Assembly (NCBI GenBank): GCA_021775875.1
Contig: JAJFHA010000003.1
Span: 1-64,000 of the forward strand
Direction of reading: 5' to 3'
From: Hyphomicrobiales bacterium
GTDB lineage: Bacteria > Pseudomonadota > Alphaproteobacteria > Rhizobiales > NORP267
DNA length: 64,000 nucleotides
Positions 1-32,039 of the stretch are shown here, one piece after another (the stretch's first letter is position 1; each line of letters begins with the position of its first letter). The notes below the pieces were generated by a model. That model saw nothing but the letters and a program-made list of their open reading frames with translations. It ran no database searches and was not told the DNA's origin. The translations under genes were made by a program, and so were the position numbers.

Positions 1-122
1 GGCAGGATGTGTTCGATTACATTGAGATGTTCTACAATCCCAAACGCAAACACGCTAACAACGGGCTGCTGTCACCCGCCGACTTCGAATTGCAGCAAAA
101 ACTGAAACCGCAAGGTGTCTAG
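1..122 (+). CDS. IS3-family transposase (OrfB/InsF-type), C-terminal fragment
   Basis: Only the last 39 codons are visible, in the frame starting at base 3 and ending with TAG at 120-122. The peptide contains YIEMFYNPKRKHANNG followed by LLSPADFE, the characteristic C-terminal signature of the DDE integrase domain (rve) of IS3-family OrfB transposases. In intact elements this protein catalyses copy-out transposition from a -1 frameshift fusion with OrfA. The N-terminal catalytic DDE residues are outside the window, so activity cannot be judged. Identification is firm; the IS subgroup is not resolved. Confidence 0.9.
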   Translation, partial: QDVFDYIEMFYNPKRKHANNGLLSPADFELQQKLKPQGV

Positions 123-140
123 AAAACGCGGGGCTATTCA
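1..140 (+). mobile_element. Right end of an IS3-family insertion sequence
   Basis: The left edge of the window is the 3' part of an IS3-family element: a transposase C-terminus followed by about 18 bases ending at position 140. Read on the minus strand, the terminus begins TGAATAGCCCCGCG, which resembles the terminal inverted repeats of IS3-family elements as I remember them. The other end and any target duplication lie outside the window. The last three bases (138-140, TCA) also form the stop codon of the retron effector on the opposite strand, so the IS appears to have landed inside that gene. Confidence 0.8.
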
Positions 141-932
141 ATCGGAGATATCAGGCATCACAAAATAGAAAGTTTGAGACGACCTCTTTTCGCCATCGAT
201 AAGGCCAAATTTCTTAAGAATGTATAGAGACGAATTAACGACTTTTTTGGACAATGAGATGCCAAGTTTGCTTAGAAAATATTCAACTTCAGCGGCCGTT
301 AGGATTGTAAAGAGATCTATAATTTGAAAGATAAGAAAAATTAGATGTCCGTGGTTGTTTTGGTCAAAACTCGTAGTGTGTTTTATTTTGTCAGACATTT
401 CCCAAACTTCGTTTACGATCTCTTCCACCTCTGTTTCTTCGACGCTATCGATATCTCCACTGTCAATTTCGTAAACTAGTACCGCTTCGTCTTTCTTGCT
501 CTCAAGTGGGTTTAATAATCCAAATTTTATAAAAGACTCGGCTTTGTGGTGGTCGCTGTGTACGACGACCACCATCTTCTGGCGAAGCTGTTTGTTCGCA
601 AAGAACAGGCCAAGCTCAGCGAGTGCACCAGGACTCTCGAGGATGATCACAATAATTGACGAAAGAGAAGCAATATCGTTTTCAAAGTCGGAAAGGTTAG
701 AATAACCAGACTGCCAATCTTTGAAGTTTTCCGCCAGAGTGAAACCTTCAGACTTATCTGGCATCCGAGCCGACAAGTTCATAAACATATTTCTAATCGA
801 ATGATTGGTTACCGCTTCATCGTCCACTGGCCCCCCGCAAATGAAGGTAATGTGAGGAGCCAGCAAAACTCTACAATTTTGCAATTCAATCAAATCTATA
901 AATTTATTTCTCAGATCGTCACGATGAATCAT
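138..932 (-). CDS. Retron St85/Ec86-family effector (nucleoside deoxyribosyltransferase-like plus wHTH), C-terminally truncated by an IS
   Basis: This 264-aa protein resembles the toxin/effector of type II-A retrons such as Ec86 (Eco1). Residues about 25-130 form an N-deoxyribosyltransferase-like Rossmann domain, with FICGG near residue 30 and ILESPGALAELGLFF near residue 97; the ESPG...ELG segment is the family hallmark and carries the catalytic glutamate region. Residues about 190-255 look like a winged helix. In characterised retrons the effector is held inactive by the RT-msDNA complex and depletes nucleotides on phage attack. The predicted ncRNA lies directly upstream. The stop codon TGA is the first three bases of the inserted IS3 end, and the protein is about 40 residues shorter than Ec86's effector, so the native C-terminus is probably lost. 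The reverse transcriptase usually encoded next would lie beyond the IS. Start ATG at 930-932. Confidence 0.82.
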   Translation of the reverse strand: MIHRDDLRNKFIDLIELQNCRVLLAPHITFICGGPVDDEAVTNHSIRNMFMNLSARMPDKSEGFTLAENFKDWQSGYSNLSDFENDIASLSSIIVIILESPGALAELGLFFANKQLRQKMVVVVHSDHHKAESFIKFGLLNPLESKKDEAVLVYEIDSGDIDSVEETEVEEIVNEVWEMSDKIKHTTSFDQNNHGHLIFLIFQIIDLFTILTAAEVEYFLSKLGISLSKKVVNSSLYILKKFGLIDGEKRSSQTFYFVMPDISD

Positions 933-943
933 TGGAGTGATCC

Positions 944-1146
944 GGAAATGAAAAGCTCAATACCTTTAAAGAAGCGATAAGAACCAAAAGCTCTTGTCGG
1001 TTCGAGTGCTCGCAGAAACGATAAGAGCTTTTGGTTCTTATCGCGCTTAAATGCGAACAATAAATTTGGGTCTGGCAGTACACCTGACCGTGCGTTGCCG
1101 CACATCCGCGTAAAGAGCAATCTCATCTTAGCTAAATTTGATTTCC
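944..1146 (-). ncRNA. Predicted retron ncRNA (msr-msd)
   Basis: Read on the minus strand, this interval has the expected retron layout. A candidate a1 segment (1137-1146, GGAAATCAAA) can pair with a candidate a2 (944-953, TTTCATTTCC) with one mismatch. Just after a1 is TTAGC, as around the priming G of Ec86. A compact msr hairpin follows, GTGCG-GCAA-CGCAC at about 1090-1103. The msd is a long stem: 1023-1044 pairs perfectly over 22 bp with 974-995, capped by a smaller stem-loop (CGAG-CA-CTCG). The a2 segment ends 11 bases before the effector start, the same order as Ec86 (ncRNA, effector, RT). An open frame crosses this interval (929-1246) but has no recognisable protein features. Exact ends and branch G are inferred. 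Confidence 0.75.
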
Positions 1147-1349
1147 TTCTCAATGTTAAATTGAACACTTGTATGTGAATTATTTCAAGGTGTTGCGTGG
1201 ATGAAGCTTCCGTGTCCGTTAATTTGCACGGTATCTTATCCATCATAAAAGTATCAAGAGGAATGTCTGCTTAGGGAAAAAAATCGGACAATCTTCGGAT
1301 GATGCAATTTGATATCAAAAAATGCTTGGCTGCGTTCCTCCTTAACCCC

Positions 1350-2960
1350 TCACCCCACCAATTCCCCCGCCAACGCCCGGCTAATCAATTCACACGTTGC
1401 CGCCACCCCATACAGCGCCACAAAAGAGCCGAATCTTGGGCCTTGGCTTTGGCCTAGCAGGACTTCGTAGAGGGCTTTGAACCAGTCGCGGAGGTTCTCA
1501 AACTCGTGGGTTTTGCCGATCTCAAACACCAGAGTTTGCAGGTCTGATCCGGCGCTGTCTTGGGGCATTTCTGCCAGCCTTGTTGCCAGATCGGCCATTG
1601 CTTTGCGCTCTTGATCTGAGGCCAAGCGATAGGTGCGGGTGGGGGCTACGAAATCGTGGAAATAGTGGATGGCGTGCTGGACCATTTCTTCCAATTGGGG
1701 GTGGTTTTCCGCGTTTGCCTCTGGCGCATAGCCGCGGATAAAGCCCCACAATACCCCGGCATCTTCGGAATTTGAGGCGCTGACCAGATTGAGCAGCATG
1801 GAGAAGCTGATCGGGATATCGGCTGTTGGCGGGTTGCCCTTGTGGATATGCCAGACCGGGTTGCCGAGTTGTTCCTTGATTTCCTGCTCCGGGTATTTTT
1901 CCAAAAAGGTCTGATAATCATCGACCTGGCGCGGGATCACATCGAAATAGAGCCGCTTGGCCTTGCGCGGGCTTTGATACATGAATTGCGACAGGCTGGT
2001 GCGCGAGGCGTATCGCAACCATTCGTCGATGGTCAGGCCGTTGCCGCGCGACTTTGAAATTTTCTCGCCATTCTGGTCGAGGAACAATTCATAGTTGAAT
2101 CCGGCTGGCGGTTGCGCGCCCAGAATGCGGCAAATCGCGCCGGATAATTTCACGCTATCAATCAGGTCTTTGCCGGCCATTTCGTAATCAATTCCAAGCG
2201 CTGCCCAGCGCATGGCCCAGTCGGCCTTCCATTGCAGCTTACAATGGCCCCCGGTGACCGGCACGGTCACCTCGTCGCCGGTTTCCGGGTCGGCATAGCT
2301 GATGGTCCCTGCCGCCACATCGCGGCCCGTCAGCGGCACCTGAAGCACCACACCCGTGCGCGGACATAGCGGCAAAAACGGGCTGTAGGTGGCGCGGCGC
2401 TCGGCTCCGAGCGTTGGCAGGATCACACCTGTCACCTTGTCGTAAACCTCAAGCATATGGCGCAGGGTCTCATCGAACCGGCCCGAGCGATACGTCTGCG
2501 TAGCGCTGACAAATTCATAGTCGAAGCCGAACGCATCCAGGAATTGCTGCAACCGGTTATTATTGTGCTGGCCAAAACCTTCATGGGTGCCATAGGGGTC
2601 CGGGATCGAGGTCAGCGGTTTGCCCAGATGCGGCTCAAGCATTTCCTTGTTGGGCACGTTGTCTGGAATTTTGCGCAGGCCATCCATATCGTCGGAAAAA
2701 CAGATCAGCCGGGTCGCTACTTTATTCTCGGTCAGCACATGAAAGGCGTGGCGCACCATGGAGGTGCGCGCGACTTCACCAAAAGTTCCGATATGCGGCA
2801 GGCCGCTTGGGCCATAGCCGGTCTCGAAAATTATGGTGCGCCCGTCCAGCCCTTTATCCTTGTAGCGATCCAGTATTTTGCGCGCCTCTTCAAACGGCCA
2901 GGCGCGGCTCTCGGTGGCCTCGGCAAGAAGGGCTGCAGCATTATTTGTTTCATGCGTCAT
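1350..2960 (-). CDS. lysS: Lysine--tRNA ligase, class I
   Basis: A 536-aa class I lysyl-tRNA synthetase (also called LysK), which charges tRNA-Lys with lysine in the cytoplasm. Class I LysRS replaces the usual class II enzyme in archaea and most alphaproteobacteria. The HIGH-type motif is PHIGTFGE at residues 55-62 and the KMSKS-type motif is KISKSRG near residue 300; the Rossmann catalytic core lies between them and a helical anticodon-binding region fills the last 200 residues. Length fits the family. The gene stands alone, with a short gap to the retron ncRNA downstream and a divergent TerB-like gene upstream. Start ATG at 2958-2960. Confidence 0.96.
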
Positions 2961-3150
2961 TGAATATCAATTCTATCTGGCCAAGTATCTGGTTTGGGCC
3001 GGAACCTAAGAATATCGGCTCATGGCGTCAATCCGGCAAAGCCTATAAAAAGTATCGATAGGCGCTTGAAGCAGCGTGCGCAAAACCCTAGATTCGAGCA
3101 AGACATATATACACCGATTTACATTCGGAATCTTGAAACAGGAGAACTGC

Positions 3151-9222: not shown

Positions 9223-10005
9223 ATGGGTTCAGGACGACATAAGCCCGGCAGCTTGGCCCGGCGCGATTTGTTCGTGCTTTTCTCTGCATTGATAATGTTA
9301 GTGATTGTCTGCTGGTGGTACTTGGTTACCATATCTCGTAACATGGACAGCATGGCTTCTTCCATGCCCACCATGGGCGTGAAATCCTGGGCTGCATCCG
9401 ACTTTTCCATGATGTTTATCATGTGGACCATCATGATGATCGCCATGATGGTTCCAACTGCGATGCGCAGCATTCTGATTTTTTCCAAAATCGCCGGACA
9501 ACGAGTAAAACGTGGCCGTTCCTTCGTGTCGGGTTACTGGTTTGCTGCGGGATATATTGTCATTTGGACAGTCTTCAGCGTTGTGGCAACCGTTCTGCAA
9601 TGGAGCCTCGATCAGGCAGCGCTTCTGTCACCCTGGATGGTGATTTACAGCCCGTTTATTGGAGCAACGATATTTATCATGGCCGGCGCTTGGCAATTGA
9701 CACCGCTTAAGAATGCCTGCCTCAGACACTGCCGTTCCCCACTCGTATTCCTGTCGCAAAATTTCCGCGCTGGAAAATTCGGAGCTGTGCGTCTGGGGGT
9801 TCGACATGGCCTGTATTGCCTTGGTTGCTGCTGGATGTTGATGGGACTGTTGTTCGTCGGTGGCATTATGAACCTGGCCTGGATTTTGGTGATAACAATC
9901 TTCGTGCTTGTTGAGAAGCTTTTGCCAGTCACCTCACGAACATCGCGGATAACCGGAACGCTGATGATGTTGGTGGGCGTAGGTTACCTCGTGTGGTTTG
10001 AATAG
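9223..10005 (+). CDS. DUF2182 integral membrane protein (predicted metal-binding)
   Basis: A 260-aa polytopic inner-membrane protein with about six or seven helices. It has the methionine-rich segment typical of DUF2182 (SMMFIMWTIMMIAMMVPTA near residues 60-80) and a conserved CLRHCRSPL cysteine/histidine loop near residue 165. The family is described as predicted metal-binding, and methionine/cysteine clusters of this kind often bind copper(I). It probably works with the DUF1326 protein encoded 8 bases upstream. A 9-bp inverted repeat follows the stop. Confidence 0.9.
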   Translation: MGSGRHKPGSLARRDLFVLFSALIMLVIVCWWYLVTISRNMDSMASSMPTMGVKSWAASDFSMMFIMWTIMMIAMMVPTAMRSILIFSKIAGQRVKRGRSFVSGYWFAAGYIVIWTVFSVVATVLQWSLDQAALLSPWMVIYSPFIGATIFIMAGAWQLTPLKNACLRHCRSPLVFLSQNFRAGKFGAVRLGVRHGLYCLGCCWMLMGLLFVGGIMNLAWILVITIFVLVEKLLPVTSRTSRITGTLMMLVGVGYLVWFE

Positions 10006-10022
10006 CCCTAGAACTATAGACA

Positions 10023-10049
10023 CCTTGTCTCCTAAAAGATGAGACAAGG
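10023..10049. terminator. Inverted repeat, possible terminator after DUF2182
   Basis: CCTTGTCTC (10023-10031) and GAGACAAGG (10041-10049) form a perfect 9-bp stem with a 9-base loop, 17 bases after the DUF2182 stop. No T-run follows directly, so termination is possible but not certain. Confidence 0.45.
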
Positions 10050-10294
10050 AGATCAATATAGGCAAATTTTTTTCAGCGAGACCATCTATGACTCTCGATT
10101 TCGCACCCCGGTGTAATTGTCATACTTCCTCCAACGCCAATGTTAGATAAACCACAGCCCGGCTAAATCCCACCCGAATTGTCTCAAATCCGTGGAAGAA
10201 AGGCCAGATACAGCGCCGAACCGAAATAGAACTGGAAAAGGAACAGCCCATAATAGTATCATTCTGTAAATCAATCCCATCTGAGGAATTTCAG

Positions 10295-31922: not shown

Positions 31923-31933
31923 TGTGGGCATCG

Positions 31934-31994
31934 AAGTGGTAATTTGAGCCGGCCGGCTTGCAGCCACGTTAAACAATTCGCTAAAAGGCCGGGG
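31934..31994 (+). ncRNA. SAM-II riboswitch (metZ leader)
   Basis: The aptamer closely follows the SAM-II pattern: P1 arms GTGG (31936-31939) and CCAC (31963-31966), an AATTTGAG segment, then GTTAAACAATTCGCTAAA, and GGCC (31987-31990) able to form the pseudoknot with CCGGCC in the loop. SAM-II is known in alphaproteobacteria upstream of methionine genes, and binding of S-adenosylmethionine turns expression off. A terminator hairpin follows. Confidence 0.88.
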
Positions 31995-32003
31995 TAGACG
32001 AAA

Positions 32004-32039
32004 CCCGGTCTGGCATTAAGCCGCGCCGGGAATTTTTTT
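32004..32039 (+). terminator. Intrinsic terminator, likely riboswitch expression platform
   Basis: CCCGG...GGC-ATTAA-GCC...CCGGG (32004-32030) followed by AA and seven T residues. It lies between the SAM-II aptamer and the metZ ribosome site, as expected for premature termination when SAM is bound. Confidence 0.8.

Follow-up and report, generated by a model that had tools for sequence, protein, structure and literature searches.

Probable remnant of a type II-A retron at an IS3-family end beside lysS in a Hyphomicrobiales bacterium

The stretch of Hyphomicrobiales DNA analysed here (64,000 nucleotides, hereafter the window) begins at the first base of its contig (G000:C13) with the end of an insertion sequence (IS), next to which lie a gene resembling a retron effector and a stable stem-loop region. 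Is this a working retron or what is left of one? The first-pass annotation had read it as a retron disrupted by an IS3-family insertion, with no reverse transcriptase (RT) in view. Our analysis leads to the conclusion, at a probability of roughly 85%, that the locus is the remnant of a type II-A (St85/Ec86-like) retron which was recently broken, and is not a working member of that type.

The locus and its IS3-family end

The features of the locus are collected in Table 1. After the IS end the minus strand carries the effector open reading frame, then the stem-loop region and then lysS. The GC content is approximately 42% over positions 1-1200, versus 52-59% over 1201-3000.

Table 1. Coordinates of the features discussed in the text, as positions in the window.
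Feature	Position	Strand	Remarks
IS3-family right end, at the contig edge	1..140	+	orfB 3' end (stop 120-122); the terminal inverted repeat, GGGGCTATTCA, has its last base at 140
Shortened retron St85-family / NDT_II-A effector gene	138..932	-	264 codons kept; stop codon (138-140) from the IS inverted repeat
Retron ncRNA (msr-msd); its ends pair (a1/a2) and its msd forms a long hairpin	~955..1119	-	ends placed by eye from alignments
msd hairpin	974..1044	-	30-nt arms 974-1003 and 1015-1044; inverted-repeat scan
Possible sigma-70 promoter	1125..1153	-	TTGAGA, 17 nt, TAAGAT; just before the ncRNA
lysS (lysine--tRNA ligase)	1350-2960	-	beside the probable retron remnant
Relic of an IS left end	9999-10065		86% identical
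SAM_alpha riboswitch	31926-32004	+	71.9 bits

The first 140 bases are 100% identical to bases 1087-1226 of the 1226-bp IS copy that closes contig C18. Other copies in the genome likewise show 100% identity to this stretch, most matches ending at about base 140. The orfB of the C18 copy matches an IS3 family transposase with 335.9 bits (cut-off 160) and its orfA does so with 62.6 bits, which is under the cut-off. The element has the orfA/orfB arrangement, an rve (DDE) transposase domain (the transposase being that of the copy in L002), inverted repeats and 3-bp target duplications, and its assignment to the IS3 family was thus correct.

The effector gene, its ncRNA and their relatives

The 264 amino acid protein had been described as an effector of the St85/Ec86 type, and family searches bear this out. 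It matches the NCBIfam model NF038232 (retron St85 family effector protein) with 213.9 bits against a cut-off of 100, and the PADLOC model NDT_II-A (1.9e-74); no Pfam family was matched at E-values up to 0.001. Judged by these matches, it is an NDT-like effector of the St85 / II-A family. It is not full length, having 264 residues versus 309-337 in 11 relatives, and 14 of the 15 relatives collected here have a longer effector. Those of Celeribacter (L016) and Amylibacter (L017) extend 52 and 56 residues, respectively, beyond its last residue. Asp264 is followed by a TGA codon, which the IS repeat TGAATAGCCCC supplies with its first three bases; the last three bases of the reading frame (138-140) are already IS sequence, and the truncation point coincides exactly with the IS end, in line with the claim that the element had cut the effector.

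All 17 columns that are invariant in 12 aligned effectors, E106 included, fall within the part that is kept. We take the Ec86 glutamate aligned with E106 to be catalytic. The aligned Ec86 position is Glu in PDB 7v9x and Ala in the 8qbl chain. The counts of private changes over the 264 shared codons (synonymous, then nonsynonymous) are 33 and 12 for the window, 33 and 12 for Amylibacter, and 37 and 6 for Celeribacter, and to judge from these codon changes no decay of the effector is visible. The calculation of dS among these three close effectors gave no value, so that the age of the insertion is bounded only by the lack of decay; an uncomputable dS is a sign of saturation. An AlphaFold2 model of the Celeribacter effector, from three alignment rows, had a mean pLDDT of 40.1 and was set aside.

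As in type II-A retrons, an msr-msd ncRNA lies directly upstream of the effector on the same strand. A scan for inverted repeats with arms of at least 18 nt within 200 nt reported six in the 64 kb, among which the msd arms, at 93%, are the longest and the most complementary. The fold of a 228-nt stretch has an energy of -81.2 kcal/mol (z -6.22), with none of 200 shuffled sequences equally stable. The ncRNA aligns with the regions upstream of the Celeribacter and Amylibacter effectors at a mean column identity of 80%. In a fold of four close loci (the window, L016, L017 and L073) a compensatory change is present in nine of the 48 predicted pairs, others among the remaining pairs being broken or gapped in one row; this fold replaced a covariance model (R1) of 12 diverse loci in which only seven pairs were kept. 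The window and all 11 relatives scanned over 300 nt have the msr start motif, TTACGCG or TTACGTG, at the same place upstream of the effector. In the window and nine of the 11, hairpin arms that match exactly over 17-26 nt are found between this motif and the gene. The exceptions are L067, with arms of 11 nt, and L069, in which the best exact arms (11 nt) are those of another hairpin and the long stem is imperfect. The msr core GCTCTTTACGCG has its sole exact occurrence in the window here; with up to two mismatches there are eight matches versus 4.57 expected, which is near chance. Promoter patterns such as the one before the ncRNA occur in a number at chance level, and a -10-like hexamer is seen by eye at an equal distance before the ncRNA in L016 and L017.

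The proposal of a retron ncRNA ahead of the effector is therefore upheld by fold stability, compensatory changes and column identity. Where covariance is concerned, the compensatory changes of the four loci speak for it, but the Rfam msr model (RF00170) reached only 23.9 bits in the window versus a gathering score of 52. This is below the scores of several unrelated hairpin families, all of those being under their own cut-offs, and in a search with more sequence RF00170 was not listed for the window at E-values up to 1. Relatives also score below 52 (L016 29.2, L066 31.2 and L017 40.5), and L064 and L065 are not listed for this model.

The sample of 15 relatives comprises two from genome contigs, three found at the level of the order, three at that of the class, four plasmid records (two of them the plasmid of one E. 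coli strain) and three phage records. Among genome contigs, 110 stretches matched a pattern and two of these encode a relative, namely Celeribacter baekdonensis B30 (70% identical to the window protein) and an Amylibacter MAG (66%); of 84 pattern matches among viral contigs, none encodes one. The effector is rare in the genomes sampled: the window's own genome is the only one of six in the family with a match, the other five having none, and with that genome included there are matches in four of 397 genomes of the order (protein search) and four of 385 of the class (family model). The Pf phages (L067, L088 and L089), which are filamentous Pseudomonas phages, have genes for an St85-family effector and an RT, which lie at one end of each record. 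The Celeribacter retron (L016 18-7248) is probably on a mobile element, since it is flanked by a phage-type integrase and a tRNA-Thr gene.

The missing reverse transcriptase

The expectation that an RT should follow the effector agrees with all 15 relatives, each of which has one downstream. In 11 of 11 the distance from the effector stop to the start of the RT match is -16 to +45 nt, the two being on the same strand, and in the other four it is also downstream; in L017 only the first 31 residues are present, as the sequence ends there. In Pseudomonas phage PfAC01b (L088, OR863250.1; positions 1-1900) the annotated effector has 266 codons, shorter than in the sister phages, and the RT match lies 182 nt beyond its stop. 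In the window, no RT stands directly downstream of the effector; the IS end is there instead.

Since the window starts at the first base of its contig, an RT beyond the IS was sought on the other contigs. None was found in the available assembly with PF00078 (RVT_1) at E-values up to 0.001, with NF038233 at E-values up to 10, or with the Celeribacter RT protein as query at E-values up to 10, a search without a positive control of its own. NF038233 itself detected an RT above its cut-off in six of six other effector-bearing genomes and none in this one. To the extent of the available assembly, the first-pass annotation was thus right that the RT is missing and an IS end is in its place. The assembly consists of 28 contigs, the smallest of 3,968 bp, and shorter pieces may be missing from it, so that an RT lying between two repeats might have escaped notice.

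Exact IS ends were collected from the assembly, giving ten left and nine right ends at or near contig ends, a count which omits diverged or partial copies on C8, C9, C17, C18 (19051), C13 (9999), C24 (48867) and C3 (8214). Eight of the nine right flanks pair with a left flank by the same three bases; C14 and C15 have an identical 82-bp flank, and the paired cases are seven distinct ones and a repeat. Three left flanks end in GTT, which leaves one pairing ambiguous. The right flank in the window, ATC, is the sole one without a partner among the ten left flanks, the chance of a random partner there being about 15% (10/64). Such an unpaired flank fits the view that the far side was lost, and fits less well a simple insertion of which both sides had been assembled. 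A search of the ten left flanks for the effector tail yielded no match with an E-value below 0.18 and none at a junction, and no RT was found beside them; a search for the tail across the whole genome, without its own positive control, gave no match. As a control for the tail query, a search with the tail of L016 recovered L017 (1.8e-13) and L073 (4.4e-4).

Contig C6 was considered as the missing far side and rejected, as the copy of the same IS at its end has the flank GTT instead of ATC, and no RT is encoded in the 15 kb of this contig. The stretch after lysS in three relatives (G001, G002 and G003) matches this contig. Near its end C6 carries a degenerate second lysS 3' end (L057:12869-13028), which is 75% identical to window positions 1346-1516 and matches exactly over 19 bp at the stop codon, and the genes neighbouring this copy follow lysS in the same three relatives. 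The copy looks like an integration scar, and the lysS 3' end may serve an island as integration site. At the end of C6, a FadX-like CoA-transferase reading frame (L057:13163-14866) runs into the same IS. The GTT flank matches the end of contig C10, and the FadX-like frame stays open for 53 codons across the joint; the joint is weak, however, since the family match does not extend past residue 509 of the 567, and GTT also stands at the end of two further left flanks.

Likely course of events and comparison with known retrons

How the RT came to be absent can be explained in more than one way. It is possible, though doubtful, that the retron was interrupted by a simple insertion and that the RT still lies just past the IS on a short piece absent from the available assembly. 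The window starts inside a repeat at a contig edge, the ten left and nine right exact IS ends lie at or near contig ends and no contig is smaller than 3,968 bp, all of which would suit such a piece; it would nevertheless require a second break within a few kb, and ATC is on no exact left flank. An unlikely sequence of events is that the RT was lost first, that the free effector was toxic, and that an IS cutting it was then selected. RcaT effectors are indeed described in a passage of PMC12405559 as toxins in an E. coli growth assay, including expression of the toxin only, but here a single IS accounts for both losses, PfAC01b has a short effector with an RT behind it, and the order of events is not readable from one genome.

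Other readings concern function. We regard it as very improbable that the effector has stayed active despite its shortening, whether by itself or together with an RT encoded elsewhere: against the retention of all 17 invariant columns with E106, the similarly short effector beside an RT in PfAC01b, and a Retron-Bth1 that a passage of PMC12548924 describes as interrupted yet DNA-producing, stand the lack of any RVT_1 match in the available genome at E-values up to 0.001 and the longer effector of 14 of the 15 relatives. More improbable still is that the unit functions without an RT, the intact ncRNA alone checking the shortened NDT effector as an RNA antitoxin in place of msDNA; if this were true, the IS insertion would have made a two-part toxin-antitoxin unit of a three-part retron. 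As for the reading that this is no retron and that an unrelated NDT-like gene has a hairpin next to it by chance, for which the low Rfam msr score (23.9 versus 52) might be cited, its probability is practically negligible given an effector far over its family cut-off and an ncRNA conserved, with compensatory changes, in relatives that bear an RT. The first-pass annotation had held that the absence of an RT beyond the IS, joined to an unrelated protein family and no conservation of the ncRNA, would refute the retron reading. No RT is found in the available assembly, but the family is the expected one and the ncRNA is conserved, so that the retron reading stands. A disrupted retron is supported by the effector family, the conservation of the ncRNA, the position of the RT in 15 of 15 relatives, the exact truncation and the lack of an RT taken together.

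For this disrupted retron we propose the following course. A horizontally acquired type II-A retron with the order ncRNA-effector-RT would have sat beside lysS. The sequence shows that the IS3-family element went in after effector codon 264, which took a C-terminal tail of some 52-56 residues off the protein and parted the operon from its RT. Because an RT is absent both beside the assembled IS ends and elsewhere in the available assembly, it was most likely removed in a second IS-associated step, by deletion or through recombination of IS copies with each other; of these, a deletion associated with the IS is the probable cause. In an intact unit the RT would make msDNA from the ncRNA, the complex would hold the NDT effector and a phage trigger would release it, as a passage of PMC13158370 describes for Ec86. 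With no RT there would be no msDNA, phage sensing would be lost, and the remnant is most likely dead as a defence system. The NDT domain with E106 is still encoded. That the cell survives with this remnant suggests either that activity requires the lost tail or that little of the protein is expressed. PfAC01b, with its short effector beside an intact RT, weakens the claim of an indispensable tail and is a reason for doubt; with all 17 invariant columns also lying in the kept part, the tail may not be essential.

The locus would then be a clean and apparently recent case of breakage of an abortive-infection system, in which one IS trims the toxin and separates the RT. Together with PfAC01b it forms a natural pair bearing on the need for the C-terminal tail of the NDT effector. 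Otherwise this is ordinary turnover of defence genes, and effector plus ncRNA alone do not make a working retron. Breakage of defence systems by mobile elements has been treated before: the PADLOC authors, in a passage of PMC9252829, discuss both systems that mobile elements have split and remnants that are inactivated, and in a passage of PMC6053426 restriction systems are disrupted by mobile elements while the retrons there look intact. Our literature search, which covered titles and abstract openings and is not proof of absence, found no St85 retron cut by an IS.

Among known systems, the closest match is retron type II-A of the St85 family (effector NF038232, RT NF038233), of which Retron-Sen2 is presumably the type member, as RcaT-Sen2 presumably is the founding member of NF038232. 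The window shares with it the effector family, the same-strand upstream ncRNA and the gene order seen in relatives, but differs in that the effector is without its C-terminal tail and no RT was found. A passage of PMC12405559 describes RcaT-Sen2 as a toxin, the assay being the growth of E. coli. More distant is retron Ec86 / Eco1 (PDB 7v9x, 8qbk and 8qbl), for which NAD+ hydrolysis is stated in a passage of PMC12405507. Its NDT part aligns with the window protein (profile E-value 2.9e-27) and the Glu that is Ala in 8qbl is kept as E106, but the sequence match ends at Ec86 residue 194 and the window is without an RT. The Celeribacter baekdonensis B30 retron (NZ_AMRK01000002.1) has an effector 70% identical over the shared part and a collinear ncRNA; unlike the window it is complete, its RT matching NF038233 with 318.7 bits. 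The retron of Sulfitobacter faviae SCSIO W1865, likened here by its description, is an alphaproteobacterial msr-msd, NDT and RT that is complete as listed in Table 3 of PMC10221251, again unlike the window. The remark that such retrons are sparsely described in alphaproteobacteria thus agrees with the four effector matches among 385 genomes of the class, but has to be qualified by this retron in print. Going by that listing of a complete alphaproteobacterial NDT retron, the locus is the remnant of an already known family.
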